Assembly: GCA_030425045.1 (NCBI GenBank)
Contig: JAUHVL010000020.1
Span: forward strand, 1 to 55,213
Origin: a bacterium
GTDB lineage: Bacteria > Bdellovibrionota > Bacteriovoracia > Bacteriovoracales > Bacteriovoracaceae
Direction: 5' to 3'
DNA: 55,213 nucleotides
The position numbers and the translations under genes are program-made. Numbering within the stretch: the stretch's first letter is position 1; each line of letters begins with the position of its first letter. A model generated the notes under the pieces. It was not told the origin of the DNA, searched no databases, and was given only the letters and a program-made list of their open reading frames with translations. Shown in pieces: positions 3,437 to 41,624 of the stretch.

Positions 3437-3613
3437 AAAACATCCTTGTTTTCGATAACCAATATCGGGCCATCCTGCCCCGACTCTTCGGGCAAGTATT
3501 GGTCATCTTATAATTTTTAATATTGTAACGACTTATAGATGCTCTGAACTTGCCCACGCAGTGGGTGCGACCACGATGGGAGCATTCTGAGTATCGAAAA
3601 ACAAGGATGTTTT
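3437..3613 (+). repeat. structured intergenic repeat, copy A (terminal inverted repeats)
   Basis: The element is bounded by near-perfect inverted arms (3437-3457 and 3592-3613, one extra A in the right arm). Inside, two blocks are almost identical to the second copy at 12712-12879: 3480-3507 (28 bases, 26 identical, containing CTTCGGGCAAGTATTGG) and 3547-3586 (40 bases, 38 identical, containing CCCACGCAGTGGG). The roughly 40 bases between the blocks are unrelated in the two copies. Possible stems include CCAATA/TATTGG, GGGCAAG/CTTGCCC and CCCAC/GTGGG. It fills the space between two convergent genes. It could be a MITE-like element or a structured RNA/terminator; no coding potential was seen. 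The rest of the 333-base gap shows nothing else. Confidence 0.75.
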
Positions 3614-3679: not shown

Positions 3680-5599
3680 CTAATCCTTGCTCCAAAAAGC
3701 TTCACGCATTTTTCTATCTTGTAAAGCACGTCCAACCATAATAAACCAAGCCGTCGAGGCGACAGACGGAGCGGTTGTGAATTGAAACTCTATTTCATTG
3801 GTTGCATAAGGGAGGGCGCCATCATTACCTTGAGCAAGCAGTGTATGCTTTGTATCTCTCATTGCTTCTTTTATACGCCCAAGTTTAAGCTTCGCCATGA
3901 TCACCCCGTATGTTCCCTCAAACCATACAATTGGAATATCATTCCAATCTTTTTTGGGATTTTTTGGGTAGAAAATTTTATTAATCTCTTCACTCTCATA
4001 AACAAGAAAGTTTCGATAAGGTTTATGTCCTTTAAATTTTCCATGTTGTGTATAATATTTGTGGGCCTTATTTAGTGCAATATTAGCTAATTTTTTCTTA
4101 CCAATACTATTTAAAAGCATAGCACCCCATGATGCTGTATCAAGTGCTTCTACGGGGTCACCACCATTTTTATTATGCCCACGATTAAATTGTTTTAACT
4201 TTGAATTCCAAGACTTTTTAACAAGTGAGTCTTTCAATAAGTTTGCGCTATTAATATACTTTTTATTATTTAAAAATCGTCCTAAATCTCTAAGAAGATA
4301 ATAGGAGTCAATATTATGTTCGATAGAGTTCCATTCTATTTTTCCTTTACGATACAACTCTTCTGGTTTTCCTGACTGAGGATTTTTTGCAATATAATAA
4401 CTTCCCTCACCACCAGTAATAAGTCCGTAACGTTTATCTTTTTTATCTGTAATTTGACGATCGATAATATAATTCGTCATTTTTTTAAGAAAATAGATAT
4501 TACTTTTTGCCTCACTGGTGGTGAGATAGGCCTTATCAAATTTCTTTCTCAAATCGAGATAAAAGACGACAGCGTACCCAAACCAAGCCGAAGCACCATT
4601 TCTTACTATAGATCCACTTTCATCTTTATCATTAGGCCAAAGATTATGTGTATTGACGGAGAACCAATGTTTTCCCGTTTCAGATTGACTTCGCCAGACA
4701 CCATCTATAATTTTTTGAGCATTTTCAAAATCACCAAGCATGGCAAAGGCAATAACGGTAAGAGCATTATCATATAGCGATGACTTACTATAAATATAAG
4801 GGAAAGCTGGACTTTCAGGGTTAGCAATATAACTGAGAATTAAATTTCTTCTCGGTGATACAGGATTAGGCACGATATCATTGGGAGTCATTTGTCCGAG
4901 AAGCCATACATAAGCTTTTTTAATTGCTTGACTCAATCTATCTTTTTTAAACTTAACGGGAAGCTGTTCTTTTAATTTAATAAAAGCAGGAAGTTTCTTT
5001 TGATCTCCAATCTTAACATCACTGATATACTGAATGAACTTCATGCCCACATCAACCGCATCACTAATAGAATTATCCACGTCAATAGCAAGTCTAAACA
5101 TGGTCATCCCTCGAGTAATGCGACGATGGTGATCTGGCCAGATATACCAATACATCAGAACTCTTTGGTAACCATCTTTACTTGCGACAGAGTAACGAAT
5201 GGGAAATTTACTATCACCAAGTTTAATGGTTTTTATAGAGCGATTTTCCATTTGCCACTCTTTGCCAAAATAACAAACTTCAGCGGCATGAAAGTCACTC
5301 TCATTTGAGCCATGGGCCACAAGTAAGTATAAACTTCTTGTTTCTTCTTCTTTTTCTGTTCGGTATTCATAATAGCGATGAAAAACGAGATCCATTTGGA
5401 GAGGAAGATCTTCACTCGACCAATTATCAAATGTTTTTGGAAATGACTCTAAAACTTCTCGATCAAGATAATTAGAATTCGATGGGAAACTTCCCTCATT
5501 CTTTGTTGCAAAATGATAAGAGGTATCGGCAGGAAATTTGTAATAGTTTGCAAAAGAAAAATTAATTGAAACAAACAATAAAAAAATTATTTTTGACAT
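3680..5599 (-). CDS. EpsI-like (DUF3485) domain fused to an alpha/alpha-barrel glycosidase-like domain, secreted
   Basis: A 639-residue protein with a signal peptide (about 1-17). Residues about 45-205 resemble the exosortase-associated EpsI/DUF3485 domain: FPKTFDNWSSEDLPL matches the usual fP..ig.W opening, and HAAEVCYFGKEW matches the H..EvCYpG.GW core with its Cys; a Y-W-Y region and an Arg-rich strand follow. Residues about 220-625 are helix-rich and look like a six-hairpin glycosidase-type barrel, with SLYDNALTVIAFAMLGD, EWNSIEHNIDSYYLL, DTASWGAMLL, WFEGTYGVIMAKLKLG and TAPSVASTAWF. Acidic residues in IEHNID and WFEGT could be catalytic; this is inference. EpsI is normally a short separate protein or an exosortase C-terminal extension, so this fusion is unusual. 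Its start overlaps the end of the exosortase gene by 13 bases. Likely a periplasmic glycan-processing partner of that system. Confidence 0.65.
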   Translation of the reverse strand: MSKIIFLLFVSINFSFANYYKFPADTSYHFATKNEGSFPSNSNYLDREVLESFPKTFDNWSSEDLPLQMDLVFHRYYEYRTEKEEETRSLYLLVAHGSNESDFHAAEVCYFGKEWQMENRSIKTIKLGDSKFPIRYSVASKDGYQRVLMYWYIWPDHHRRITRGMTMFRLAIDVDNSISDAVDVGMKFIQYISDVKIGDQKKLPAFIKLKEQLPVKFKKDRLSQAIKKAYVWLLGQMTPNDIVPNPVSPRRNLILSYIANPESPAFPYIYSKSSLYDNALTVIAFAMLGDFENAQKIIDGVWRSQSETGKHWFSVNTHNLWPNDKDESGSIVRNGASAWFGYAVVFYLDLRKKFDKAYLTTSEAKSNIYFLKKMTNYIIDRQITDKKDKRYGLITGGEGSYYIAKNPQSGKPEELYRKGKIEWNSIEHNIDSYYLLRDLGRFLNNKKYINSANLLKDSLVKKSWNSKLKQFNRGHNKNGGDPVEALDTASWGAMLLNSIGKKKLANIALNKAHKYYTQHGKFKGHKPYRNFLVYESEEINKIFYPKNPKKDWNDIPIVWFEGTYGVIMAKLKLGRIKEAMRDTKHTLLAQGNDGALPYATNEIEFQFTTAPSVASTAWFIMVGRALQDRKMREAFWSKD

Positions 5600-6423
5600 A
5601 CTTTTTTATACAACCAGTAGATCGTCGTTAAAGCGATAAAAAAGATCACCGTGTTTCCCTTATCATGAAAGGCATCATAGGCCCAATAAGGATCAGTGAA
5701 AATCGCCGTCACCAACATTAATGTTACTCTGATCATATTATAAAACTGAGCTGTCAAAAAACTAAGTAAAATAAAGCTCAATCCCAATTTTATTTTATAA
5801 GGGCGCCATATTAAAAGTATGATTGAAAAGGTTGGTAATACGAGAAACGACCTTATACCACTACTAGCGGGACCAACGACAAAAGTACCCGAGTCGATAA
5901 CTATCCTACCTTGAGAAACTTCATTTACAACACCAAAAAGTGAAAGTAAGTGCCCCGATAAAACACTGCTACTAATCTGAAGATAGGAAGTTAAATGGTA
6001 TATATAGGGGAAAGGGGTAATCACCAAAAGAAAAAGAATAAGGTAGAACCTTTCATAACTTCTCATTAAAACGCATTTAAATAAAAAGAAATTTAATAAT
6101 AACCAAAGAGATAGTGCACCTAGAAAAGGTGCTCGTAAATAATACTCGGCAATGGCCGAAACAATTAAAGAAATAATAGGAATGATTAAATTGATAGCAT
6201 TTAAATTATAGATAAGAGGTTTATACTTCCATCTTCTTGATTTAAATTTCTTGAAAACAAAAATAAAAGCTGCAATGAGAAAGAAGTAAACATGCTGGTA
6301 ATGATCACTTTTAAACCATGAAAATAAAAGCCATTCTATATGGTAAAGATTTATAAAAACATAGAGTAATAAAAAAAGGACAATGATGAAGCTAGCAATC
6401 TTCTTTTTTAATTCCAAGCTCAT
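5587..6423 (-). CDS. exosortase/archaeosortase family membrane protein with Ser replacing the catalytic Cys
   Basis: A 278-residue polytopic membrane protein of about eight hydrophobic segments, the size and topology of exosortases, transpeptidase-like enzymes that cleave C-terminal sorting signals such as PEP-CTERM. The conserved regions are recognisable in order: PASSGIRSFL (185-194), where the family has A-C-S-G-I/L-R; QFYNMIRVTL (Asn229, Arg232); and FHDKGN (His253). Arg and His of the usual Cys-Arg-His triad are present, but the Cys position is Ser187, encoded AGT. The only other cysteines (117 and 276) are outside the motif. It starts inside the end of the small upstream gene (32-base overlap) and overlaps the EpsI-fusion gene downstream. 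It may be a serine-using variant or a non-cleaving homologue. Family is confident; activity is not. Confidence 0.8.
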   Translation of the reverse strand: MSLELKKKIASFIIVLFLLLYVFINLYHIEWLLFSWFKSDHYQHVYFFLIAAFIFVFKKFKSRRWKYKPLIYNLNAINLIIPIISLIVSAIAEYYLRAPFLGALSLWLLLNFFLFKCVLMRSYERFYLILFLLVITPFPYIYHLTSYLQISSSVLSGHLLSLFGVVNEVSQGRIVIDSGTFVVGPASSGIRSFLVLPTFSIILLIWRPYKIKLGLSFILLSFLTAQFYNMIRVTLMLVTAIFTDPYWAYDAFHDKGNTVIFFIALTTIYWLYKKVCQK

Positions 6424-6766
6424 CCCTGCGATTACGATATAAAATTAATGAGACAAAGCCCATCGTGGCCAGACCCATGGCCGCCGTTGATAATTCATCA
6501 ACTTGAGGATCTCCTGGCCGACACCGTCCAGTACGACTACAGAAAAAATCTCTCATTCTATCTCGAGCATTATCTCTTTCTGTCCTACGACTATCTCTAC
6601 GATCACCTCTTTGATTACCAACATTATCTCTTCGGTTATTGCTTCGACCATTATCATTTCTAAAATTTCGAATATCATTTCGACCGCGATCATTATCAGC
6701 AAATACAGGAATTGATAAAAGACTTATCAAGATTATAACTAAACTGCTTTTCACCATAGATCTCAT
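6392..6766 (-). CDS. small secreted Arg/Asp/Asn-rich protein, candidate substrate of the adjacent exosortase
   Basis: A 124-residue protein with a signal peptide (about 1-23, VFA/DND), a very polar region rich in Arg, Asp and Asn (24-73), two cysteines in FFCSRTGRCRPG (76 and 82), and a C-terminal module made of an acidic/polar motif DPQVDE (86-91), a 19-residue hydrophobic helix (92-110) and a basic cluster RNRR (111-114), then ten more residues. Motif, helix and basic cluster are the three parts of an exosortase sorting signal, although the motif is not PEP and the tail after the basic cluster is longer than usual. It lies directly before, and overlapping, the exosortase gene. AGGG six bases before the ATG supports the start. 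The substrate role is inference from architecture and position. Confidence 0.6.
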   Translation of the reverse strand: MRSMVKSSLVIILISLLSIPVFADNDRGRNDIRNFRNDNGRSNNRRDNVGNQRGDRRDSRRTERDNARDRMRDFFCSRTGRCRPGDPQVDELSTAAMGLATMGFVSLILYRNRRDELGIKKEDC

Positions 6767-6789
6767 ATTTGGCCCTGGTTAAATAACCC

Positions 6790-6803
6790 TATACTTAAGT
6801 ATA
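6790..6803. promoter_or_regulatory. perfect 14-base palindrome upstream of the sorting-substrate gene
   Basis: TATACTTAAGTATA is exactly self-complementary and lies in the only gap (62 bases) inside the six-gene operon, 24 bases upstream of the small Arg-rich gene. It could be a regulator-binding site or part of an internal AT-rich promoter. Seen directly; function is inferred. Confidence 0.35.
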
Positions 6804-6828
6804 TCATAGTTTAAATTATGGCCTTTTC

Positions 6829-7620
6829 TTATCCTTCCCAACTACCTATAATCACAAGAGGAAAAAGCCACTGGAGCAGAGGATCCACCTCAAAGACTAT
6901 TTTCTTTCCTACAATTTCCTTTTGTTTTTCAACAGTTATGTAATATTGATCGATATCCCATCTTTCACCAGAGGAACCATTCCAGTCATCACCTCTTCCC
7001 AAGGGTTTACCGTTAATGAGGTTCGTACTGCCATTTCCCTTTAATCCGTGACCACCAATAACGGCAATTTTGAAAGGCGCTGACTTCGCCTTTAAATCTA
7101 CCCCATGTAGTGAGCCAGGGTAAAAGGCCTCTAAACCAGCAAAAATCTTTACACGATTTTCAGACTTTTGTTTTTCAAGTAAGACCATGGCATGTCCATA
7201 GTATTTAGGATTTGGCTTCGTCTTTCCCGCTAGCTTAATAGTATATGTCCCTTTTTTTAAACGAAGTTCGGCCACCGCTAAAAATAGTTTTCCTTGAGTA
7301 TAGTTTTCATAAAAATGTTTTGCTTTTACCTTTATAATTTTGTCATTTAATTTGAGGTTAATATTTTTATGTTCACTTGGAACTCCCGCTGATTCACCGG
7401 ACCAAATAAGAAGTACTTTTTCATAATCTCTTGAGAGCTCATAACTGAATGTACTATTTTTAGTGCTACTTCCCAGCACCTTAAAGTCATAACCTTTTTG
7501 GTTAAAAATTGAGGAATACTTTTTACTTAACCTACGAGACTTTTCATCAGTTAAAGATGCAGCAAAAACAACCTTATATAAGGATAGAGCTAATAATAAA
7601 AACGCGAATACTATTTTCAT
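6829..7620 (-). CDS. secreted protein of the exosortase-like operon, unknown function
   Basis: A 263-residue protein with a signal peptide (about 1-20, VFA/ASL). The mature part looks beta-rich, with alternating strands such as VLLIWSGES, LFLAVAELRLKKGTYTIKLAG and KIAVIGGHG. The C-terminal motif GDDWNGSSGERWDIDQYYI, followed by a strand and VDPLLQWLFPLVIIG, is weakly reminiscent of DUF3344-type surface domains, but I cannot confirm this. Its ATG overlaps the stop of the glycosyltransferase gene (ATGA), so the two are translationally coupled and likely work in the same process. No catalytic motif was recognised. Confidence 0.55.
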   Translation of the reverse strand: MKIVFAFLLLALSLYKVVFAASLTDEKSRRLSKKYSSIFNQKGYDFKVLGSSTKNSTFSYELSRDYEKVLLIWSGESAGVPSEHKNINLKLNDKIIKVKAKHFYENYTQGKLFLAVAELRLKKGTYTIKLAGKTKPNPKYYGHAMVLLEKQKSENRVKIFAGLEAFYPGSLHGVDLKAKSAPFKIAVIGGHGLKGNGSTNLINGKPLGRGDDWNGSSGERWDIDQYYITVEKQKEIVGKKIVFEVDPLLQWLFPLVIIGSWEG

Positions 7621-9104
7621 GCATTACCTTCTAATCGGTTTTGAACATCATCCACTTCATCTCCATCATCGTCGTCATCTTCACTTTTGGCAAAGCCTGT
7701 TCTGGTCATTTCACCCCAAGTTTTATCTCCGATAAGATATTTATAAAAACCTTTTAGTCTCCATATCAATGTCAACTGACGATATCCAAAATTTTCTAAG
7801 ATTACATATATAATCATTTTTAAAAAATCTACCTTAGTATGATACTGACCTAAGGAAACTTGAGTCAATAGCATCGAAGTTGTTGTTAAAATTAAGGAAA
7901 AGCCAACTGAGGCCACAAAAAACAACGCGAAAAAATTATAATCGACAATATTAAAAACGAGAGCACCAATAAAAATCATCCAGCCGAGAAATTCGATAAA
8001 AGGTGATAAAAGTTCTCCAAAAATAAAAAAGGGAAAGGCAAAAGTCCCAATGACTCCGTAACGAGGATTAAAGGCCATGCCCTTGTGACGGTAAAGTGCA
8101 TCTAATAAACCACGATGCCATCTTTCTCTTTGTCTTGCTAAAACATTTATGTCTTCGGGAACCTCTGTCCAAGCAACCGTATCTGGTAAACAATACACCT
8201 TATAAGGATTACCTCTAATTTTTTCATTATGGTGAATTCTAACGGTTAACTCCATATCTTCGCCAACAGTATCAGCGAGGTAACCACCACATTCTAAAAC
8301 CGTCTGTTTATCAAAAAGACCGAAGGCACCGGAAATAATCATATTGCCACCAATATAATTCCAGCCCACTCTCCCAAAAAGATAGGCCCTCATATATTCA
8401 ACAATTTGAATTCCCGCTAACATTGATTTTGGAAAGTTAACTTTACTCACAACACCATTTTTAAAGGTACAATCATTAATAACCCCAATTGTTCCCCCAA
8501 CGGCAACCACATCTTTTTCAACTAATAAGGTTGTCATGGCCCTTAAAAGACCGTCTTTTGCAATGAGAGTATCGGCATCGAGTGCGAGAAAATAGGCAAA
8601 TTTTGAGGCATTAATTCCACAATTGAGAGCGTCTGCTTTTCCACCGTTTTCTTTATCAATAAAAAGTAAATTGTCATACTTCTTAGACTTAAAATATCCT
8701 CTAACTTTTTCAGTGGGTATATTGACCGGAAATGCTGGTGGAACCAGATACATTTCAAACTTTTCTCTCATCACTTCACTGGTATTATCTTTCGATCCAT
8801 CATTCACGACGATAATTTCGTAATGGCCATAATCAAGTTTAAGCATTTGCTTAACACTATCATAAATTGTAATTCCCTCATTATAAGCGGGAACAATAAT
8901 CGTAATGGGGGGAAACGGCTTTTCTCGACCAAAAAGATGCTCTCTTTCAATTTCAAGCTCTTTATTTCTAAAAAAGACCTGAGGAATTGAAAGCAAAAGA
9001 AGAAGCATATAGATTGAATTTAATCCAATAAAGTAAATGATAATGATGAACGAGAAATCATTAACAATTTGAATAAATCTTAATAAAAAATATTCAAAAT
9101 CCAT
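7617..9104 (-). CDS. membrane processive family 2 glycosyltransferase (PgaC/hyaluronan-synthase-like)
   Basis: A 495-residue inner-membrane GT-A enzyme. One or two N-terminal membrane helices (about 10-40) lead to a cytoplasmic catalytic domain with TIIVPAYNEG, VVNDGSKDN (nucleotide-binding Asp), LALDADT (DxD), TVGEDMELT and the Q/RxxRW acceptor motif RQRERWHRG, followed by several membrane helices. This is the arrangement of processive beta-glycan synthases that couple polymerisation to export. The tail ends in a run of acidic residues (DDDDDGDEVDD). Start and stop overlap both neighbours (TAATG with the HEAT gene, ATGA with the secreted-protein gene), so it is the centre of a coupled gene set. 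Sugar specificity cannot be read from the sequence. Confidence 0.85.
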   Translation of the reverse strand: MDFEYFLLRFIQIVNDFSFIIIIYFIGLNSIYMLLLLLSIPQVFFRNKELEIEREHLFGREKPFPPITIIVPAYNEGITIYDSVKQMLKLDYGHYEIIVVNDGSKDNTSEVMREKFEMYLVPPAFPVNIPTEKVRGYFKSKKYDNLLFIDKENGGKADALNCGINASKFAYFLALDADTLIAKDGLLRAMTTLLVEKDVVAVGGTIGVINDCTFKNGVVSKVNFPKSMLAGIQIVEYMRAYLFGRVGWNYIGGNMIISGAFGLFDKQTVLECGGYLADTVGEDMELTVRIHHNEKIRGNPYKVYCLPDTVAWTEVPEDINVLARQRERWHRGLLDALYRHKGMAFNPRYGVIGTFAFPFFIFGELLSPFIEFLGWMIFIGALVFNIVDYNFFALFFVASVGFSLILTTTSMLLTQVSLGQYHTKVDFLKMIIYVILENFGYRQLTLIWRLKGFYKYLIGDKTWGEMTRTGFAKSEDDDDDGDEVDDVQNRLEGNA

Positions 9105-10360
9105 TATCCGGCCTTCTTTTTCTTATTCTCTAAGTTTTGCTGCTCTTGCATTTGCTTAAAAGCTTCTTTCATATCTTTCGTTTTTTGCGCGTCTGATTTT
9201 CTCACGTTTTCAAAATTCATTTTTAGAGCAACTTTCTGCTCATCTGATTTTAAATTTAGACGTTTTACATATTGGGCCATTTGATAAGCATAACGATCTT
9301 GTTTCGCTGTAATTGAATTTAAAGCAGCAAGTCCTGGACGATCTAGCTTTGCTAAGGCCAAAGCTGCATTAAATCTCACCCACCAATTTTTATCACAAAG
9401 GTTTTGCAGTAGTAATGGAATTGCCTGATAAGCTTTTCTTTCGCCTAATAACTTTGACGTTAGTGAGCGAACTTCCCAATCTTTATCTTTCATGTAACGA
9501 AGTAGCATTTGAGTTGCATGAAAATTATCAAACTTATTTAAACATCGTATCGCCGTTAATTTTAATTGCTTGTTTGGAGAGCGAACATCTCGTTTTAATA
9601 AGAATAGGTCAGAATTCTCAACAGAGTCAGAAATAATATCGATACAAACTCGTCTTATTTCGGGGTCTTCTTCATCGAGAAGCCTCTCTCTTACAAATTC
9701 CAAAAAGTCTTTTTGGCTATTTTTCATAAGATCGACATACACCGCTCTGGTATGACGATTTTCTCTTTTCATACTGTCGATAATGGCCTGAACAGAATAA
9801 TTATTTCCAATTTTTAAAAGCGGTCCGAGAGCAATAAACCGATTGTGAGCAACAGGATCAAGTAAGAACCCAATCAAATACTCTTCATCGCAAGGACGAG
9901 GATCTAAAATCATACATCGTAATGCCCAGTAACGTTTAATCCAATGAGTTGAGTGTGCATCAACTCTTGCCATAGGAAGTAGTAACTCCGTTAACAGGTG
10001 ATCCAGCATAAATAACCAATGAGTATTTGTTTCAAACTTTTTGTTTAATTTAATAATAACAGGTATGATTAAGGCTAAATTCTTCCACTCTGGCTTTAGA
10101 GACTCAATTGAAATAAAAACTCTTTTGTTGATGGCATTTGAGATAAATTTATATATATCGTTTTGAAGCGCAAAAGATTTTTTATACTTTTTTAATTTAA
10201 ATTTATTGTAAAAAAGTACCGTGCCAATGGTGAAGGCAATAATTATAAATTCAGCGGCTAAAATTTTTCCTAGAAATGGCAAAGACAAAAACCAAGAGAC
10301 ACTATCGGAAGCGATAAGTGACATATGTTGAAAAATGGATGAAAGTTTTTCCATTACCAT
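9104..10360 (-). CDS. membrane-anchored HEAT-repeat protein
   Basis: A 418-residue protein with one membrane helix near 30-50 followed by a basic stretch (KFKLKKYKKS) and then a long helical solenoid. HEAT-like repeats are clear in about 150-370, for example HFIALGPLLKIGNNYSVQAI-type and DWEVRSLTSKLLGERKAYQA-type pairs, ending in a charged, probably coiled tail rich in Lys, Glu and Gln. Such proteins are scaffolds. The last base of the TAA stop is shared with the ATG of the glycosyltransferase gene, which suggests that it assembles with that enzyme at the cytoplasmic face. It is the first gene of the operon; the 157 bases upstream contain no clear promoter that I can defend. Confidence 0.7.
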   Translation of the reverse strand: MVMEKLSSIFQHMSLIASDSVSWFLSLPFLGKILAAEFIIIAFTIGTVLFYNKFKLKKYKKSFALQNDIYKFISNAINKRVFISIESLKPEWKNLALIIPVIIKLNKKFETNTHWLFMLDHLLTELLLPMARVDAHSTHWIKRYWALRCMILDPRPCDEEYLIGFLLDPVAHNRFIALGPLLKIGNNYSVQAIIDSMKRENRHTRAVYVDLMKNSQKDFLEFVRERLLDEEDPEIRRVCIDIISDSVENSDLFLLKRDVRSPNKQLKLTAIRCLNKFDNFHATQMLLRYMKDKDWEVRSLTSKLLGERKAYQAIPLLLQNLCDKNWWVRFNAALALAKLDRPGLAALNSITAKQDRYAYQMAQYVKRLNLKSDEQKVALKMNFENVRKSDAQKTKDMKEAFKQMQEQQNLENKKKKAG

Positions 10361-20096: not shown

Positions 20097-21710
20097 ATGA
20101 GAATTCTATCAATTGATGCTGGTACCTATAGTGTTAAATACCTAGTAGCGACTCTCGAGCGAAAAAAAATTACAATCGATTTCTCTGAAGAAATTATTGT
20201 TCCTTCCCTCACACCACCTGTTCCCACTGAAAACGAACAGGAAATTATCGACAATCAACCCTATATTCCATTAGATCAGTGGACTGAAATTATTCGATCC
20301 ATTTCACAAACTGATGAAGAAACAAAAGTTATTCTACAATATCCTCATCAACTTATTACCTCCCGTTATTTAACCCTTCCCAATGTGAGTAATAAAAAAC
20401 TTGATATGATGATTCCCTTCCAACTTGATGAGAGTATTCCCTACTCCTCCATGGATTCCCATATTATTAGTTCTCTTGAAAAAGATGCTCATAATGTCCA
20501 TGGGATTGTCAGCGTCGCTCAAAAAAATGAGTTTGAAACTTTTTATAATCATTTGAGATCAAGTGAAATTCTTCCTTCTCTTTTAACCAGTGAACTCGAC
20601 CTTATTAATACTTATGTGTCGGGGATAAAAATGGAGGGGCCAGCTGCCATTATCGATATCGGTCATAGAACCACCAAGGCCTATATGATTTATCAAAATA
20701 GAGTAATCTCTAATCATATTTCCCATCGAGCAGGTGTTTCTATCGATTATGCTATCGCGCAAGCCTATAATATTTCTCTCGAAGAAGCGTCTGAATATAA
20801 ACATCAAAATTGTTTTTTTCTGACAGAAGGACAATACGATTCTGTGAACGATGAACAAAAAGAATTTGCCAATCTCATGAAAGAGACGATGGGACCTTTA
20901 ATTCAAGATATCAAGAGATGGACCCTTGGCTTTCGAGTTAAATATGGTCTGCCTATTGAGAATGTCTATATCACAGGTGGAACAAGCCAAATTAATAATA
21001 TCGATAATTTTCTTACGCAGACGACAGGTAAGATTACTAAGCATCTTGGACAAATCGAGAAAATTGATGATGACTCGCAGACAATTGGTGCTAATGCCAA
21101 TCAATTTTACCTAAGTAAAATTATGGCCGCGACTCAAGCTTTCAAAGAAAGACCTCATAACTTTCTTTTTGGAAACTACTCAAGAGCTCATGGCCATAGT
21201 ATTCCTGCCCATAGTGCCGCTTTTATACTGGCCAGAACATCCCTACTCTCCATTGCTTTTTCCGTTTTACTGCTAGCTGAAATCTTTTTAATCAGTGCTG
21301 ATAATAAAAAAGTCGCAAAGGCCGTTAAAAGATCAGTGAAGTCGCCTGAGCTTGCACTAACCAGAGCGCAACAAAGGTATTACCCCAAAAAGGCCGATAA
21401 ACTTTTAAAAGCTTTGAAAAAGAAAAAAAATGTTATCACTCAAGAGGTAAAAACTATCCAGTCTGCCTCTGAAGTTAATGCGATTGCTCCTCTTGCTATG
21501 ATCAACAAATTAGTCGGTAAAAAGAAAGATGTAGAAATGATATACTTTAGAGGAGATGGTGAAATGAACCATGCTCGCTTCTTAGTCAAAGATGCCGCTC
21601 AATTAAAAACTCTTGAAAAAAGTTTATTGGCCCTCGGTCTTGATAATGCTCGAGCAAGTGCAAGTCCTCCTAAAAAAACCATCGATTTTCACTTTGAGGT
21701 AATGCCATGA
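20097..21710 (+). CDS. gspL: type II secretion GspL-like protein with PilM-type ATPase fold
   Basis: A 537-residue inner-membrane protein. Residues 1-345 have an actin/PilM-like fold: RILSIDAGTYSVKYLVATL phosphate-1 loop, PAAIIDIGHRTTKAYMIYQN phosphate-2 loop and VYITGGTSQINNIDNFL adenosine loop. One membrane helix at about 373-396 is followed by a basic, coiled periplasmic region and a small C-terminal alpha/beta domain. This is the GspL layout, the platform protein that links the GspE ATPase to the pseudopilus. It overlaps gspM by four bases (ATGA) and leads gspM and gspN. Other secretion genes are not in the window. Confidence 0.75.
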   Translation: MRILSIDAGTYSVKYLVATLERKKITIDFSEEIIVPSLTPPVPTENEQEIIDNQPYIPLDQWTEIIRSISQTDEETKVILQYPHQLITSRYLTLPNVSNKKLDMMIPFQLDESIPYSSMDSHIISSLEKDAHNVHGIVSVAQKNEFETFYNHLRSSEILPSLLTSELDLINTYVSGIKMEGPAAIIDIGHRTTKAYMIYQNRVISNHISHRAGVSIDYAIAQAYNISLEEASEYKHQNCFFLTEGQYDSVNDEQKEFANLMKETMGPLIQDIKRWTLGFRVKYGLPIENVYITGGTSQINNIDNFLTQTTGKITKHLGQIEKIDDDSQTIGANANQFYLSKIMAATQAFKERPHNFLFGNYSRAHGHSIPAHSAAFILARTSLLSIAFSVLLLAEIFLISADNKKVAKAVKRSVKSPELALTRAQQRYYPKKADKLLKALKKKKNVITQEVKTIQSASEVNAIAPLAMINKLVGKKKDVEMIYFRGDGEMNHARFLVKDAAQLKTLEKSLLALGLDNARASASPPKKTIDFHFEVMP

Positions 21711-22333
21711 GCGAACAAAAAGTTAAAATGTCTCTTTTTAAAAAGCTAGACTCTCTCATTTTTGAGCAAATTGATAACTTAATCAATCATCCCAATTATC
21801 GAGAGTTAATGGGAAAGCTAGATGTCCTCACTGACGAACAGGTAAAAATTGTTAATCACGTTGTTTCATACGCAATTATTACATTACCGCTGATCATCTT
21901 CTTTGCCATTTTAATAACTTTTTTTAGTGCTCAGTCTAAACTTTCTGTCTCTACAGATATTCTTTCAACCATAGATGAGATTAGTGCTAATAAATCTTCT
22001 GTCAGCTCTCTGGAAAGAACATTAATTTCTCCAGGTCCGGCCAATAATATTAATGAATTTCAAACCAAGCTGGTGGGTATTCTCACTCGTTATAATATTG
22101 CTTCTGATAAAGTAACAGTTAAGACCTTTGCCACTGAATCGAGTGGCGGAAATATTAAAAAAAGTCGCTCTCAAGTGGTCTTTAGTCGCTTTTCTTCAAA
22201 AAACTTAGCTGATTTTCTAACCGGTTTAACACTTACTCAAAAACTTAAAATTATAGATATCGAAATTAAAAAGACGGAAGATAGAACACAACTTTTTGGG
22301 CAGCTATCATTAATTCACTACGGAAAAAATTAA
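21707..22333 (+). CDS. gspM: type II secretion GspM-like protein
   Basis: A 208-residue bitopic protein: a cytoplasmic N-terminus of about 50 residues, one helix (about 50-72), and a periplasmic coiled plus ferredoxin-like domain with an alternating pattern near the end (LKIIDIEIKKTEDRTQLFGQLSLIHYG in character). Size, topology and position between gspL and gspN fit GspM, which pairs with GspL in the inner-membrane platform. Primary-sequence similarity in this family is weak, so context carries the call. Confidence 0.6.
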   Translation: MSEQKVKMSLFKKLDSLIFEQIDNLINHPNYRELMGKLDVLTDEQVKIVNHVVSYAIITLPLIIFFAILITFFSAQSKLSVSTDILSTIDEISANKSSVSSLERTLISPGPANNINEFQTKLVGILTRYNIASDKVTVKTFATESSGGNIKKSRSQVVFSRFSSKNLADFLTGLTLTQKLKIIDIEIKKTEDRTQLFGQLSLIHYGKN

Positions 22334-22338
22334 GTTAG

Positions 22339-23259
22339 ATGAATAAAAAATACGAAGATAATGTCATTCAAGATGAAACTTACACCATTCCTATGGATGT
22401 AAAGTTAAAAATCACGATTGTTTCTCTCGTGTTTGCCTTGGTGGGACTGTTGATGAACCTCCCCATGCTTGGCAACGTCGAAGAGCAAATTGAAACGGCG
22501 ATAAAGTCTAATCCTCAATGCCCAATCACCTATAAGAAATTTAACTTAAGTTATGTCCTTCCCAAAGTGACTTTAACGAAACCCGTTATACCGGGACGAT
22601 GTTTTAATAACCCCTCTTCTTCTCTCAAATTAGACTCTGTAACCACAAGTTTTACCATTCCAAGCTTTATTCCTCCCGGCCTAAAGTTTCATTCGGTGAT
22701 TAAAGGTCTTGGGTCTGAAATAAATGTCTACCCAAGAGTAACGGCAGGAACAGTTGATATTCGAATTACAAAAAGTAAGATTAATGCCAAATTTATCAAC
22801 GCATTTACCGTTTACCCCAACCTTTTAAATGGTAATATGAGCTTAGAAGGCTTTTTCTCTACAGTAAAAAACAAACTTGATAGCGGCGTTGCTAAATTGT
22901 CTTCTAAAAACCTTGTTATCCCCGCTCAAACTATTAACTTCTTTGAAATTCCCGAGTTACTTCTCAATAAACTTAACTTGGTTATCAAAATTGAAAAAAA
23001 TAAATTAAATGTAAACCAACTTCTTATTGGAAACGAAACATCTCCGATCAGAGCTGAGATCAAAGGAACGATTAACCTCAATCAAAGGGCCATGAATCTC
23101 TCTATTTTAAATCTTCAAGGTAAAGTTAAATTCTCGAAAGACTTTCTTAAGTCATTTGCGATTTTAGAAATGATGTTAGCCCAAGCGAAACCTGTTGATG
23201 AGTATTACAGTTTTACTCTGACAGGCCCCCTTGGTTCGCCGAAGCCTACTTTCAAGTAA
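22339..23259 (+). CDS. gspN: type II secretion GspN-like protein
   Basis: A 306-residue protein with one N-terminal membrane helix (about 27-44, VSLVFALVGLLMNLPM) and a long beta-strand-rich periplasmic part resembling the AsmA-like GspN fold of deltaproteobacterial-type secretion clusters. The C-terminus YYSFTLTGPLGSPKPTF contains the G.l..P...G-type ending typical of GspN. It starts five bases after gspM and closes the three-gene set. Role in secretion is by family and context. Confidence 0.7.
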   Translation: MNKKYEDNVIQDETYTIPMDVKLKITIVSLVFALVGLLMNLPMLGNVEEQIETAIKSNPQCPITYKKFNLSYVLPKVTLTKPVIPGRCFNNPSSSLKLDSVTTSFTIPSFIPPGLKFHSVIKGLGSEINVYPRVTAGTVDIRITKSKINAKFINAFTVYPNLLNGNMSLEGFFSTVKNKLDSGVAKLSSKNLVIPAQTINFFEIPELLLNKLNLVIKIEKNKLNVNQLLIGNETSPIRAEIKGTINLNQRAMNLSILNLQGKVKFSKDFLKSFAILEMMLAQAKPVDEYYSFTLTGPLGSPKPTFK

Positions 23260-27820: not shown

Positions 27821-28021
27821 ATGCAATCGATTATTAATTTGTTTACCGTCGTTTCAGTCCTACTTGCTTTGAAATTTGGAGTTCCTAGAGTTCATCATTA
27901 TCTAAAACTAAAAGCATTAGAAAAAGTCGCGAAAGGGTGTGATAAGCCGACACTCATGAGAAATTCAGAGTCATTTTTTCAACTTCTCTTGAAGTCTTTC
28001 AAACGGAGTTTTACCCTTTAA
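27821..28021 (+). pseudogene. small membrane-anchored protein, 3' end replaced by IS remnant
   Basis: GGAGG eight bases before the ATG at 27821 supports this start over the ATG at 27806. The product begins MQSIINLFTVVSVLLALKFG, a single membrane helix, then a basic segment HHYLKLKALEKVAKG. From about 27938 on the frame runs into DNA that belongs to the IS481-like remnant, so the last 20-30 codons (to 28021) are antisense to the transposase gene and not native. The original C-terminus is lost. Function unknown. Confidence 0.45.
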
Positions 28022-28458
28022 TCCTCCATGTGGTCTATATAAATTGTAAAGTTTTTCCCATTCTTCGACTTTTCTTTTTAAATCTTTATCGTTTTTATAG
28101 TTTAAATGATAATAAAACTCTTCTTTGTCTGTTCGATGAGACCTTTCAACTTTTCCATTAAGTCTTGGAGTGCCTTTTCTGATATAAACATGTTTGATGC
28201 CATGATCTAGTACTTCCCAATGAAACTTCGCTTGGAATTCATGGCCATTGTCAGTCCTAATCATGGCGATTTTGAAAGGAAACTTTTTTTGTATATATTT
28301 AAAGAAGTCGATTGCATTCGCTTGTGTATGACGATCATAAACTTTTAAAACTCTCATTCTGGTTGCATCATCAATTGCTGTATACTGGAAGCGTTTTATT
28401 TTCTTTTTACCTTTTTTAAAAATGAGGAATTTAACATCCATTTGAATATCCATTTGAA
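27938..28458 (-). mobile_element. truncated IS481-like element: C-terminal transposase fragment
   Basis: The minus strand encodes about 160 residues of an IS481/IS3-type DDE transposase catalytic domain: MDVKFLIF with the first Asp, FQYTAIDDATRMRVLKVYDR, MIRTDNGHEF with the second Asp, and NGKVERSHRTDKEEFYY with the Glu, then YRPHGGLKGKTPFERL. The stop is at 27971. The N-terminal helix-turn-helix half is absent; upstream (28459 on) the frame is antisense/out-of-frame DNA of a different gene. TGTGATAAGCCGACACTCAT at 27938 may be the element's terminal repeat; this boundary is a guess. The other end is deleted. Confidence 0.75.
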
Positions 28459-29039
28459 ATAATGGTAAAAGTTTCACCAACAGTAATATTTGCATGATGC
28501 CCAACCTTGGCCTGACGTAAGGCCCTCATATAAAGATCACCACCAACATTTAATGTGGTATTACTTCTAATATTTACTCTAGCATCCCCTGTCGCCTGAG
28601 TTGAAACCATCTCTAAGGTTCCACCAATATCTAAATTTGTATTTGCTTGAAGAGTAACAATATTTGCTGAATATAATTTAGCGTCAGCGACCGTGGTTAA
28701 ACTCGCCCCACTTTCAATACGAACTTCTTCTTTAGCAACTAAACAAGCTGTTCCAGTCGCTGAAAGGTTTCTGTTATTTTCAATAATCAGCTTACAAGCT
28801 GAAAACAAATTGATGTCTCCAGTGTAATCAAAGTCGATTTTAAGGTTTTTAATTTTATTCGTATTAGAATTTAATCCCAGATCAACCATATACGTATTAA
28901 TATCGGCCTCACTGGTCGCCACAAACGTTCCTTGACATTCAAGTGCGTCATTTGGGTGAGTCGTAATACAATTTTGAGAATAAACGCTAAATGAGACAAG
29001 AGATGCCCATAGGCATAAGATTAGCTTTGCAGGGTTCAT
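28431..29039 (-). pseudogene. secreted beta-helix (adhesin-like) protein, truncated at the C-terminus
   Basis: A 202-residue frame with a signal peptide (about 1-21, VYS/QNC). After a Cys-containing start, the sequence becomes a ladder of short strands (NTNLDIGGTLEMVS, ARVNIRSNTTLNVGGDLYM, HHANITVGETFTI), the pattern of polymer-like beta-helix surface proteins. It ends at SNGYSNGC within a 12-base tandem duplication (28435-28458) exactly where the transposase coding begins, so the true C-terminus has been lost. Probably non-functional. Confidence 0.6.
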
Positions 29040-38892: not shown

Positions 38893-40926
38893 ATGTTCAG
38901 TATCGATTCACTTAACCCAGAGCAGCGAGAAGCAGCTTCTGCAATTGAAGGTCCCCTTTTAATTTTAGCGGGGGCAGGCACCGGTAAAACACGAACCATC
39001 ACCTTTAGAATGGCCCATATGGTGGCCAACTTGGGCATTAAGCCCAACTCTATACTCGGAGTCACGTTTACCAATAAAGCCGCAAAGGAGATGCAAGAGC
39101 GTTTGGGAAATCTGATTAAGGTAAAAAAGGCTGACCGCCCACTTCTGTGTACCTTTCACAAGCTGGGGTTATTGATTTTAAAAAAAGAGATTTCAAAACT
39201 TGGTTATCATAAAAACTTTAGCATCTATGGACCTGCTGAGCAGTCGTCGATTATTCGAGAAGCCTTGAAAAAGTTTAAGGCCGAAAAATCCTTTGATCGT
39301 AAAATGATTATGGCCAGTATTGGTAATCTTAAAAATCGTGGCATCAGTGAAATTGACTATGCCGACTCTGAGCTGTTTGACCCTGATGATCCCTACTCTG
39401 TTGCGACAGAATATTGTTATCGCTTTTACCAAGATAAACTGCATTTTTATAATGCTATTGATTTTGATGATATTTTACGTTTAACCATTGAACTCTTTCG
39501 AAAGCATCCAGAAATCGCAGAGGAATATTCTCGAAAGTATCAATACATCATGGTCGATGAATATCAAGATACCAATAGTATACAATTTGAAATGGTACGT
39601 GCCCTAACATCGACTCACGATAATCTCTGTGTGGTTGGTGACGATGATCAATCAATTTATGGTTTTCGTGGTGCTGATATCACAAATATTTTAAGCTTTG
39701 AAAAACATTTCCCTAGAGCAAAAGTGATTAAGTTAGAGCAAAACTATCGCTCAACGTCTCCTATTTTAGATCTCGCCAATAATGTTATTAAAGTAAATAA
39801 AGAAAGAAGAGATAAAAATCTCTGGAGTAATAAACAAAACGAACACGACCCACTACTTTGGGCCATGAGTGATAGCGATCATGAAGCACAAGTGATTGTC
39901 GAAGAAATTACTCAATATCAAGCGAAAGGATTTCCGCTTCATGAAGTGGCCATCTTATATCGCTCGAATACACAAATTCCTCCCTTTGAAGATGAGCTAA
40001 GACTTTCTCAGGTCCCCTATACTATTTTTGGTGGCCAAAAGTTTTATGAGAAAAAAGAAATTAAAGATTTGATTGCCTATATGCAGGTTCTTTTAAATCC
40101 TCACGACCAACTGGCCATGAGAAGAATTTTAAATGTTCCCAATCGAGGCATTGGAAATGTAACGTTAAAAAAGTTTATCGCCATAAGTGAAGAGCAAAAC
40201 TGTTCGCTTTATAATGCGCTCAAAAAAAATACCGACATAGCGGGAGCAACAGCAAAAGCTGTCTTTAATTTTGTAGAGTTGATTGAAGAATATCGCGATG
40301 TTTTTAAAAGCTATCCTCTTCCCCAGGCCATTAGTAAATTAGTCGAAAAAATTGATTATAATCGCTTTATTGATAAACAATACGATCAAACAAGCCAAGC
40401 GACGTTAAAAAAGAATGATGTCGCTCAGTTTATTGAATCGGCCGAAAGATTTATTCGAAATCATCCCGATAAGGCCTCCCTTGAAAACTATGTAGAACAA
40501 TTATTACTTCAAGATGTTCGCGATAAAGAAAACGAACCAGAAGATGACGAGGGAAAGGCCAATCGAGTAAATATGATGACCCTCCATACGGCGAAAGGGC
40601 TGGAGTTTAATTTGGTCTTTTTAGTTGGAATGGAAGAAGAGCTTTTACCCCATAAAAAATGTATTGCTGAGGCCGGTGGTCTTAGCGAAGAAAGAAGACT
40701 TGCTTACGTTGGTGTCACCAGAGCCCGAGAGCGACTTATCATGAGTTATTGTAAAGAGCGTATGCTTTACGGCAAAAAAACACCACGCTTTCGCTCACGC
40801 TTTATCAACGAGCTCAATCAACATTATATCGAACAAGACCGCACAACCTTTGGCCACCTCTCTGAAGAAGAGGCAGAAGACTATAAGAAGTCATTCTTTG
40901 CAAACTTAATGGATACTCTCGACTAA
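38893..40926 (+). CDS. UvrD/Rep/PcrA-type superfamily 1 DNA helicase
   Basis: A 3'-5' DNA helicase of about 677 residues used in repair or replication restart. All SF1A motifs are present: LNPEQREAA Q-motif, LAGAGTGKTRTI Walker A, VTFTNKAAKEM Ia, MVDEYQDTN Walker B, VVGDDDQSIYGFRGA III, LEQNYRS IV, MTLHTAKGLEF V and YVGVTRARERL VI. The size is closer to Rep than to UvrD, and the C-terminal Tudor-like tail of UvrD/PcrA is not obvious. The start is uncertain: ATG 38893 begins the conserved region, while GTG 38866 is also in frame. It ends overlapping the stop of the opposing repeat-protein gene. Confidence 0.9.
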   Translation: MFSIDSLNPEQREAASAIEGPLLILAGAGTGKTRTITFRMAHMVANLGIKPNSILGVTFTNKAAKEMQERLGNLIKVKKADRPLLCTFHKLGLLILKKEISKLGYHKNFSIYGPAEQSSIIREALKKFKAEKSFDRKMIMASIGNLKNRGISEIDYADSELFDPDDPYSVATEYCYRFYQDKLHFYNAIDFDDILRLTIELFRKHPEIAEEYSRKYQYIMVDEYQDTNSIQFEMVRALTSTHDNLCVVGDDDQSIYGFRGADITNILSFEKHFPRAKVIKLEQNYRSTSPILDLANNVIKVNKERRDKNLWSNKQNEHDPLLWAMSDSDHEAQVIVEEITQYQAKGFPLHEVAILYRSNTQIPPFEDELRLSQVPYTIFGGQKFYEKKEIKDLIAYMQVLLNPHDQLAMRRILNVPNRGIGNVTLKKFIAISEEQNCSLYNALKKNTDIAGATAKAVFNFVELIEEYRDVFKSYPLPQAISKLVEKIDYNRFIDKQYDQTSQATLKKNDVAQFIESAERFIRNHPDKASLENYVEQLLLQDVRDKENEPEDDEGKANRVNMMTLHTAKGLEFNLVFLVGMEEELLPHKKCIAEAGGLSEERRLAYVGVTRARERLIMSYCKERMLYGKKTPRFRSRFINELNQHYIEQDRTTFGHLSEEEAEDYKKSFFANLMDTLD

Positions 40927-41624
40927 ATTGAATTTAGTGCGCTACTACATGAAGTTGGATAAGTAGAAACTTCCTCACCAGTATTTACATTGAGCATATT
41001 CCAACTATCTTTACAGAAAAAGCCGTTTTTAAGCTCTTTCATCGCTGTTTGACATGCTTTTGGATAAGTGGAAACTTCTTCGCCGGTTTTAATTTTTAAG
41101 ATATTCCAGCTATCTTTACAAAACATCCCCTTTCTCATCTCTTTCATAGCTGTTTGACATGCTTTTGGATAAGTAGAAACTTCTTCGCCGGTTTTAATAT
41201 TTAAGATATTCCAACTGTCTTTACAGAACATCCCATCACTCATTTCAGTCATGGCCTTTTGACATGCTGTTGGATAAGTAGAAGTTTCTTCGCCAGTTTT
41301 AATATTCAAGATATTCCAACTATCTTTACAAAACATTCCTTCTTTCATTTCATCTAAAGCAGTTTGACAAGCAGTTGGGTAAGTAGAAATTTTTTCTCCA
41401 GTTGATACATTAAAGAGGTTCCAACTATCTTTACAAAATATATTTAAACTTTCTCCACCACAAAGATTTTCCGATAAAATATCCTCTTTGGTTACTCGAG
41501 TGGCTTCACCATCTTTACAACGGACTGACCAGTTACCTGCTTCGTCTTGAACCAGAAGCTCAACATCATCGAGACCGGCGTGAATATTCGTCACTAATAG
41601 AAGAGAAAGAAGAATTGATTTCAT
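40923..41624 (-). CDS. secreted protein of five tandem 35-residue Cys repeats
   Basis: A 233-residue protein with a signal peptide (about 1-16, IHA/GLD). After a unique region of 46 residues come five repeats beginning at Phe63, 98, 133, 168 and 203, an exact 35-residue period: FCKDSWN, a short strand, TGE, STYP, then a Cys and Ala/Met-rich helix. Each unit has two cysteines, so one disulphide per unit is likely. The last unit is four residues short. The family is not recognised. The stop overlaps the helicase stop by four bases. Near-identical DNA in units 2-4 makes copy-number change likely. Confidence 0.7.
   Translation of the reverse strand: MKSILLSLLLVTNIHAGLDDVELLVQDEAGNWSVRCKDGEATRVTKEDILSENLCGGESLNIFCKDSWNLFNVSTGEKISTYPTACQTALDEMKEGMFCKDSWNILNIKTGEETSTYPTACQKAMTEMSDGMFCKDSWNILNIKTGEEVSTYPKACQTAMKEMRKGMFCKDSWNILKIKTGEEVSTYPKACQTAMKELKNGFFCKDSWNMLNVNTGEEVSTYPTSCSSALNSI
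40926..41438 (-). repeat. 105-bp in-frame tandem repeat (about 4.9 units)
   Basis: Five units, each 105 bases, encode the 35-residue repeats. Inner units differ by only a few bases over long stretches, for example in the segment encoding the KDSWNIL core and the TGEEVSTYP core, whereas the two outer units are more diverged. This pattern fits duplication by slippage or unequal recombination from the inside. Confidence 0.85.

Follow-up and report, generated by a model that had tools for sequence, protein, structure and literature searches.

Six genes on the minus strand of a Bacteriovoracaceae contig (phylum Bdellovibrionota; assembly GCA_030425045.1, contig JAUHVL010000020.1) probably encode synthase-dependent machinery that makes an envelope or extracellular glycan and into which a dedicated exosortase cassette is integrated. 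The stretch analysed, called the window here, is the entire contig of 55,213 nucleotides (nt) and belongs to a genome of 3.97 Mb that is rated 99.9% complete; the six genes occupy positions 10360-3680. The core of the locus comprises a HEAT-repeat protein, a GT2 glycosyltransferase and an (alpha/alpha)6 glycosidase, and it exists without the cassette in relatives. The cassette comprises a beta-rich protein, a small target protein, an exosortase homologue and an EpsI domain that is fused to the glycosidase. The individual features, based on domain matches, alignments and AlphaFold2 (AF2) models with their predicted local distance difference test (pLDDT) scores, are the following.

9104-10360, minus strand: HEAT-repeat protein of 418 amino acids with one N-terminal membrane helix (hydrophobic segment 33-51), a probable membrane scaffold of the synthase; PF13646/PF02985.
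7617-9104, minus strand: membrane-bound GT2 of the processive type, 495 amino acids, the putative glycan synthase; PF00535, PF13641 and motifs.
6829-7620, minus strand: beta-rich secreted protein of 263 amino acids from an unnamed family; alignments and AF2 model.
6392-6766, minus strand: small secreted protein of 124 amino acids, the putative dedicated exosortase target; gene position and tripartite tail.
5587-6423, minus strand: exosortase homologue of 278 amino acids with Ser187 in place of the family Cys; PF09721, E 2e-22.
3680-5599, minus strand: EpsI-glycosidase fusion, whole gene; PF11984 and AF2 model.
5050-5599, minus strand: EpsI/DUF3485 domain, N-terminal part of the fusion (about residues 20-190); PF11984 at residues 46-153.
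3680-4940, minus strand: predicted (alpha/alpha)6 glycosidase-type domain (about residues 220-639 of the fusion); AF2 model, pLDDT 78.

An open reading frame (ORF) check of the window returned the six genes at the coordinates given in an earlier note, which was made from the sequence alone and described one unit with four overlapping junctions of 1-32 nt. These overlaps are present between the HEAT and GT2 genes (1 nt), the GT2 and beta-rich genes (4 nt), the small-protein and exosortase genes (32 nt) and the exosortase and EpsI-glycosidase genes (13 nt). The description as one unit requires a correction at a single point, as a gap of 62 nt, the sole non-overlapping junction of the operon, separates the beta-rich gene from the small-protein gene. 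Upstream, 157 nt of intergenic sequence are followed by a CBS-domain gene, and about 330 nt without a gene lie on the 3' side. Promoter and terminator scans gave signals at the level of shuffled sequence. Shortly behind the end of the operon, 145 nt are surrounded by a perfect inverted repeat of 16 nt (AAAACATCCTTGTTTT, 3437-3452 and 3598-3613), and no further copy of it is present in the window.

The earlier note had proposed to look for the same gene order in other Bdellovibrionota genomes. We found it in four genomes of the Nitrospinota and, within the phylum of the window organism, in two additional families. In all these groups, as far as the contigs are long enough, the GT2 gene is followed by the genes for the beta-rich protein, the small protein with its tripartite tail, the exosortase and the EpsI-glycosidase, and the HEAT gene stands in front wherever the contig reaches that far. 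A HEAT gene lies directly 5' of the GT2 gene in our loci L033, L034, L042, L043, L077 and L080. Because the same order recurs in distant genomes (the carriers are distantly related groundwater and marine bacteria), the gene set represents more than a chance assembly. A search of the phylum with the EpsI-glycosidase as query returned long homologues with 38-42% identity in two other families, and when 84,980 species genomes were scanned with the alignment of the beta-rich proteins, only 11 loci came up, which belong to metagenome-assembled genomes labelled Deltaproteobacteria, Nitrospina or Nitrospinota and to one labelled Nitrospirota. The latter falls in the Nitrospinota phylum group in a later search of 77 genomes, which also added the fourth complete Nitrospinota case. 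Within the class of the window organism, only 4 of 129 genomes have a PF09721 match, and the two other readable ones sit in different contexts. Thus, few genomes have the unit, yet its gene order is conserved across at least two phyla.

Most relatives carry an additional gene between the GT2 and beta-rich genes; it encodes a TPR protein whose C-terminal part probably forms a beta barrel. At L027/L043 two TPR proteins are encoded at this place and the barrel gene follows the EpsI-glycosidase fusion. In several relatives, the GT2 has a neighbour with a CBM30-like domain, and a gene for a GH94 phosphorylase is located in the vicinity. The characterization of the locus as a minimal set therefore holds for the window version, which is the most compact of the systems compared, but not for the relatives with their larger module; the compact set is a reduced form of that module.

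The separation into core and cassette becomes apparent in genomes that have only one of them. Three genomes of the window organism's own family (G031, G032 and G033) encode a GT2 that is 57-61% identical to that of the window beside a glycosidase without EpsI, with a HEAT gene upstream of the GT2 where the contig reaches, and have no exosortase, beta-rich or small-protein gene there. In G033, GT2 and glycosidase form one protein of 942 residues (L034 6901-9729, G033:C123), and no exosortase gene lies near it; this joining of the two points to a cooperation of synthase and glycosidase. The Nitrospinota genome G422 likewise combines HEAT, GT2 and a TPR protein with a glycosidase that lacks EpsI, and PF09721 has no match in any of these four genomes. 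Counting intact glycosidase genes only (G071 and G181 are cut by contig ends and were left out), 10 carry EpsI, all of them in exosortase genomes, and 4 do not, none of them in an exosortase genome; the chance of such a perfect split is 1 in 1001 if the genomes were independent, which they are not. In the GT2 tree, the window groups with G031-G033 at a support of 100/100, which indicates that the cassette was gained or lost within this family. The reverse arrangement, a beta-rich gene with exosortase and EpsI but without GT2 or glycosidase, was found at one locus (L037/L041, 9406-12334 in L041). This second, separate set adjoins a gene with a recognised, divergent PEP-CTERM tail.

The exosortase homologue of the window passes the curated PF09721 threshold over its membrane domain (80 bits, cut-off 25.7) and matches the exo_archaeo signature TIGR04178 (38.9 bits, cut-off 23). 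Against the 8TM_EpsH model TIGR02602 it remains below the cut-off with 61.1 versus 105.55 bits, where a Nitrospinota relative reaches 102.0. Haft et al. (2006) named Cys-x-Gly, Asn-x-x-Arg and His-x-x-x-Gly as the invariant EpsH motifs (PMC1569441). At the Cys-x-Gly site, which reads for example ADCTGIKS or DACSGLRS in Cys exosortases, the window protein has PASSGIRS (S-S-G-I), with Ser187 encoded by AGT, one change away from the Cys codon TGT. Asn-x-x-Arg is present as NMIRV with Arg232. His253 is retained within HDKGN, in which Asn occupies the Gly position of His-x-x-x-Gly and Gly stands one place earlier. Alignment and codon check thus bear out the replacement of Cys by Ser that the earlier note had reported as an atypical trait; it is not a peculiarity of this genome, as all four Nitrospinota members of the system read EPSSGIQS. 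Since four other genomes carry Ser, we rejected a sequencing error.

Among the 24 exosortases whose active site could be read in the alignment, five have Ser, all of them within this system, 18 have Cys and one orphan has Phe. Cys was also present in 8/8 readable Nitrospinota exosortases outside the system. The five Ser enzymes all keep Asn-x-x-Arg and His and share HD[KR]GN, a sequence that no Cys enzyme of the set contains. Moreover, 5/5 S-x-G exosortases adjoin small proteins with a P-x-V-x-E-[LF] tail, whereas Cys-type systems have tails such as PGAPE[LM] (e.g. PGAPEL) or PEVFEI. A tree calculated after removal of the active-site columns placed the window enzyme with the Nitrospinota Ser sequences at a support of only 66/59, and a single origin of the Ser exosortases is plausible. 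No specific NCBIfam exosortase model tested was passed by these proteins. Because the window enzyme has neither Cys-x-Gly nor the exact His-x-x-x-Gly, scores below the TIGR02602 cut-off and has a target that is not a PEP-CTERM protein, we describe it, judging by these motifs and scores, as an exosortase homologue that has Ser in the place of the nucleophile and lies outside any named exosortase class. Two further homologues deviate in other ways. The orphan outside the system (L129; L135 10239-11105, G294:C52) has Phe for Cys and Asp for His, lies directly downstream of a gene that by eye ends like a histidine kinase, and looks like a dead exosortase; the L041 exosortase has Lys at the expected catalytic His (FWKYLGG).

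The presumed target is encoded between the beta-rich gene and the exosortase gene, as in the relatives. It consists of a signal peptide, a middle part rich in Arg, Asp and Asn, and a tail region CSRTGRC-RPGD-PQVDEL that is followed by a helix and basic residues (hydrophobic segments 1-19 and 92-110). When all 55 window genes were examined for a signal peptide together with a tripartite C-terminus, the small protein was the only one to pass, and a leave-one-out tail profile, a weak combined profile, ranked it first among 238 window ORFs (E 0.0028). The tails of the small proteins from Nitrospinota consist of the motif P-T-V-[SA]-E-[LF], a helix and a basic end, and in most of these proteins two Cys residues stand a little ahead of the motif. 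Across six genomes that encode tails of this kind, strong tail-profile matches were confined to genes of this system; as the profile included the window tail, the window's own match is by construction. The mature window protein is short and strongly basic, with a predicted isoelectric point of 11.6, and several relatives are alike. Since one of the Cys-type targets is strongly acidic, we rejected the idea that the carriers are polycationic in general. Pfam and NCBIfam name no family for the small or the beta-rich protein.

The earlier note had further described a compact machine with a single dedicated target. That the system is conserved and its target dedicated is supported by the gene order elsewhere and by the genome search, which found one exosortase homologue and one DUF3485 protein in the organism's own genome. 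The target is not always single, however, as two Nitrospinota genomes have tandem target genes, three in L077 (9069-10283) and two in L042 (10887-11691). These tandem targets have PTVSE[LF] tails and differing mature parts, some of them extremely rich in Lys and Arg. A Cys exosortase with many PEP-CTERM proteins, which would have made the set redundant, was not found: the exosortase homologue is the only one, and the PEP-CTERM models PF07589/TIGR02595 match neither the small protein nor any other protein of the genome.

The N-terminal part of the fusion matches PF11984 (DUF3485, EpsI) at residues 46-153 only, with 46.4 bits (cut-off 26.1), and reaches 34 bits with the EpsI model TIGR02914, below its cut-off of 42.8; R75, Y77, H104, E107 and C109 are invariant EpsI positions. 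The AF2 model of the fusion predicts an (alpha/alpha)6 toroid for the glycosidase half. Its best structural match was MmpH (7qsj; Z 32.6, root mean square deviation 2.8 over 314 residues), followed by other six-hairpin enzymes with Z 24-30. MmpH is a mycobacterial methylmannose polysaccharide endomannosidase (PMC9883506) to which the window domain is only 13% identical, and the likeness concerns the toroid fold of a predicted model and not the substrate. Acid and base of MmpH are reported to be Asp47 or Asp50 and Glu262 (PMC9883506). Asp277 and Glu561, invariant in the alignment of the window's glycosidase family, are candidates for the same roles and roughly fit the MmpH positions, as judged without a residue-by-residue superposition.

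The GT2 contains the QxxRW motif of processive enzymes as QRERW (residues 325-329), along with NDGS, DAD and EDME, and no PilZ domain was found in it. It matches the PgaC/IcaA model (E 2e-37), yet far under the cut-off, and scores better there than against TIGR03111 (E 5e-29, score 101, cut-off 364). XrtG is an exosortase-family gene with the associated glycosyltransferase TIGR03111 (NCBIfam), and the window locus resembles this pair in tying an exosortase-family gene to a processive GT2; it differs in that its GT2 remains far below the TIGR03111 cut-off and its exosortase does not match the XrtG model. In the cellulose Bcs operon, BcsZ is the (alpha/alpha)6 glycosidase counterpart. The window locus shares with Bcs/Pga synthase-dependent secretion a processive membrane GT2 with QxxRW, an (alpha/alpha)6 glycosidase in the operon and, in the relatives, a TPR/beta-barrel gene. 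In contrast to these systems, the window operon has no exporter gene, a GT2 without PilZ and an added exosortase cassette. No sequence relation of the window proteins to BcsB or BcsZ was detected.

The beta-rich family was seen only beside exosortases in our data. Its relatives in two other families of the phylum are 27-34% identical to the window protein, and GNGS, SxGxxWDxD and DPLLQWxxP are invariant. The AF2 model (pLDDT 81) is mostly beta. Virus coat proteins, SIDT1, BcsB and CBM-like jelly rolls came up as fold matches with Z ~7-8 and were not used to assign a function; the likeness to BcsB is a weak jelly-roll resemblance (Z 7.7) and not decisive. A sequence-only search of the PDB with the beta-rich and EpsI-glycosidase alignments returned nothing useful, and no PDB chain matched the glycosidase family.

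Read together, these genes suggest the following mechanism. The GT2 would polymerise and export a glycan, which the core would trim. The small protein would be secreted but stay in the inner membrane, retained there by the helix near its C-terminus. The exosortase would recognise the P-x-V-x-E-[LF] tail and cut it via Ser187, with Arg232 and His253, through an acyl-ester intermediate; with serine catalysis, this ester would take the place of a thioester. The C-terminus that the cut creates on the small protein might then be passed to an acceptor, possibly glycan or lipid. The fusion points to a glycosidase that is kept at the exosortase, where the EpsI domain could position it so as to couple glycan trimming or release with carrier processing. 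In its most specific form, this proposal describes a cross-phylum clade of exosortases with a serine nucleophile and a P-x-V-x-E-[LF] recognition tail that join a small carrier to the glycan of the same operon, with a glycosidase tied in via EpsI. We put this form forward tentatively and consider it rather unlikely to hold in every part.

The gene set, its conservation, the co-absence of cassette genes, the dedicated target and the occurrence of Ser together with an altered tail can be read from the genes; catalysis, acceptor, identity of the glycan and coupling are what we infer from them. Several points weigh against the proposed machine. The window exosortase has a very long branch, and its position in the tree is uncertain; the co-absence counts ignore the relatedness of the genomes. 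No TPR/beta-barrel exporter gene is present in the window operon (the rest of the genome was not searched for one). A tail profile built from Nitrospinota proteins only does not match the window small protein, which is why the link between the window and Nitrospinota tails is positional and architectural more than sequence-based. Finally, Ser could mean a loss of activity.

The strongest competitor of a covalent link between carrier and glycan is an exosortase that cleaves only, releasing or activating the small protein as a regulator or matrix protein. This alternative is a serious one, even if we rate it below an even chance. The acceptor of exosortase transfer was unknown in the founding description (PMC1569441), and no later answer was found in the open-licence papers searched. 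Furthermore, the mature small proteins are short and of low complexity and range from strongly basic to strongly acidic, which does not indicate one fixed partner. On the other hand, the fusion of EpsI with the glycosidase and the fixed linkage to a synthase point to a physical connection with the glycan.

Alternatively, the Ser exosortase may be a pseudoenzyme that does no more than bind the small protein and the EpsI-glycosidase and so serves the glycan machine as a membrane tether or as a chaperone. The Cys that is invariant in the family is missing, His-x-x-x-Gly has become His-x-x-Gly-Asn, the window protein is very divergent (~23% identity to its nearest relatives), and homologues such as L129 and L041 have lost active-site residues as well. 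However, the replacement is not a random residue but Ser in all five enzymes over two phyla, Arg and His are kept in 5/5, dedicated tripartite targets are retained and even multiplied beside the enzyme, and L129 is an orphan outside the system. The retained Arg, His and target tails argue against a dead enzyme, and we regard this explanation as unlikely. An ordinary dedicated PEP-CTERM/exosortase pair that came to lie in a polysaccharide operon by chance is the least favoured explanation: exosortase genes almost always have exopolysaccharide genes around them (PMC1569441), one-enzyme one-target pairs are known for related sorting enzymes (PMC3237569) and Cys-type members have near-PEP tails such as PGAPEL, but the gene set is fixed and includes an unnamed beta-rich family and the EpsI-glycosidase fusion, the window target has no PEP-CTERM match, Ser is conserved, and the enzymes score under the cut-offs of all specific NCBIfam exosortase models tested.

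Within the proposed glycan machine with its own exosortase cassette, the parts correspond to the EpsH/PEP-CTERM system (PMC1569441) in the PF09721 homology, the retained Asn-x-x-Arg and His, the EpsI/DUF3485 partner, the tripartite target tail and the polysaccharide genes in the neighbourhood. They differ from it in the Ser for Cys, the PQVDEL tail in place of PEP, the one target encoded beside the enzyme, the fusion of EpsI to a glycosidase, the single processive GT2 and the unnamed beta-rich partner. New here are the Ser at the nucleophile position, the beta-rich family and exosortases that pass no specific NCBIfam model, whereas the proximity of exosortase and polysaccharide genes was known before. 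The open-licence papers searched included none on serine exosortases, and an earlier mention of Ser variants is possible.

Elsewhere in the window, a secreted protein (40923-41624) contains about five tandem repeats of roughly 30 residues (FCKDSWNILNIKTGEEVSTYPTACQ). An integrase-core-like ORF (27971-28504) overlaps the end of a secreted beta-helix-like ORF (28431-29039) and resembles a remnant of a mobile element, and three genes at 20097-23259 resemble, by eye, GspL, GspM and GspN of the type II secretion system.

In classical exosortase loci, many scattered targets and a large polysaccharide cluster make a link between protein and glycan hard to test. Here, a short operon combines a single enzyme with its one target (as many as three in Nitrospinota), a synthase and a glycosidase, which turns the matter into a small reconstitution problem. 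The conserved Ser in place of the nucleophilic Cys provides a natural test of the catalytic model, and the beta-rich family adds an unnamed exosortase-associated protein.

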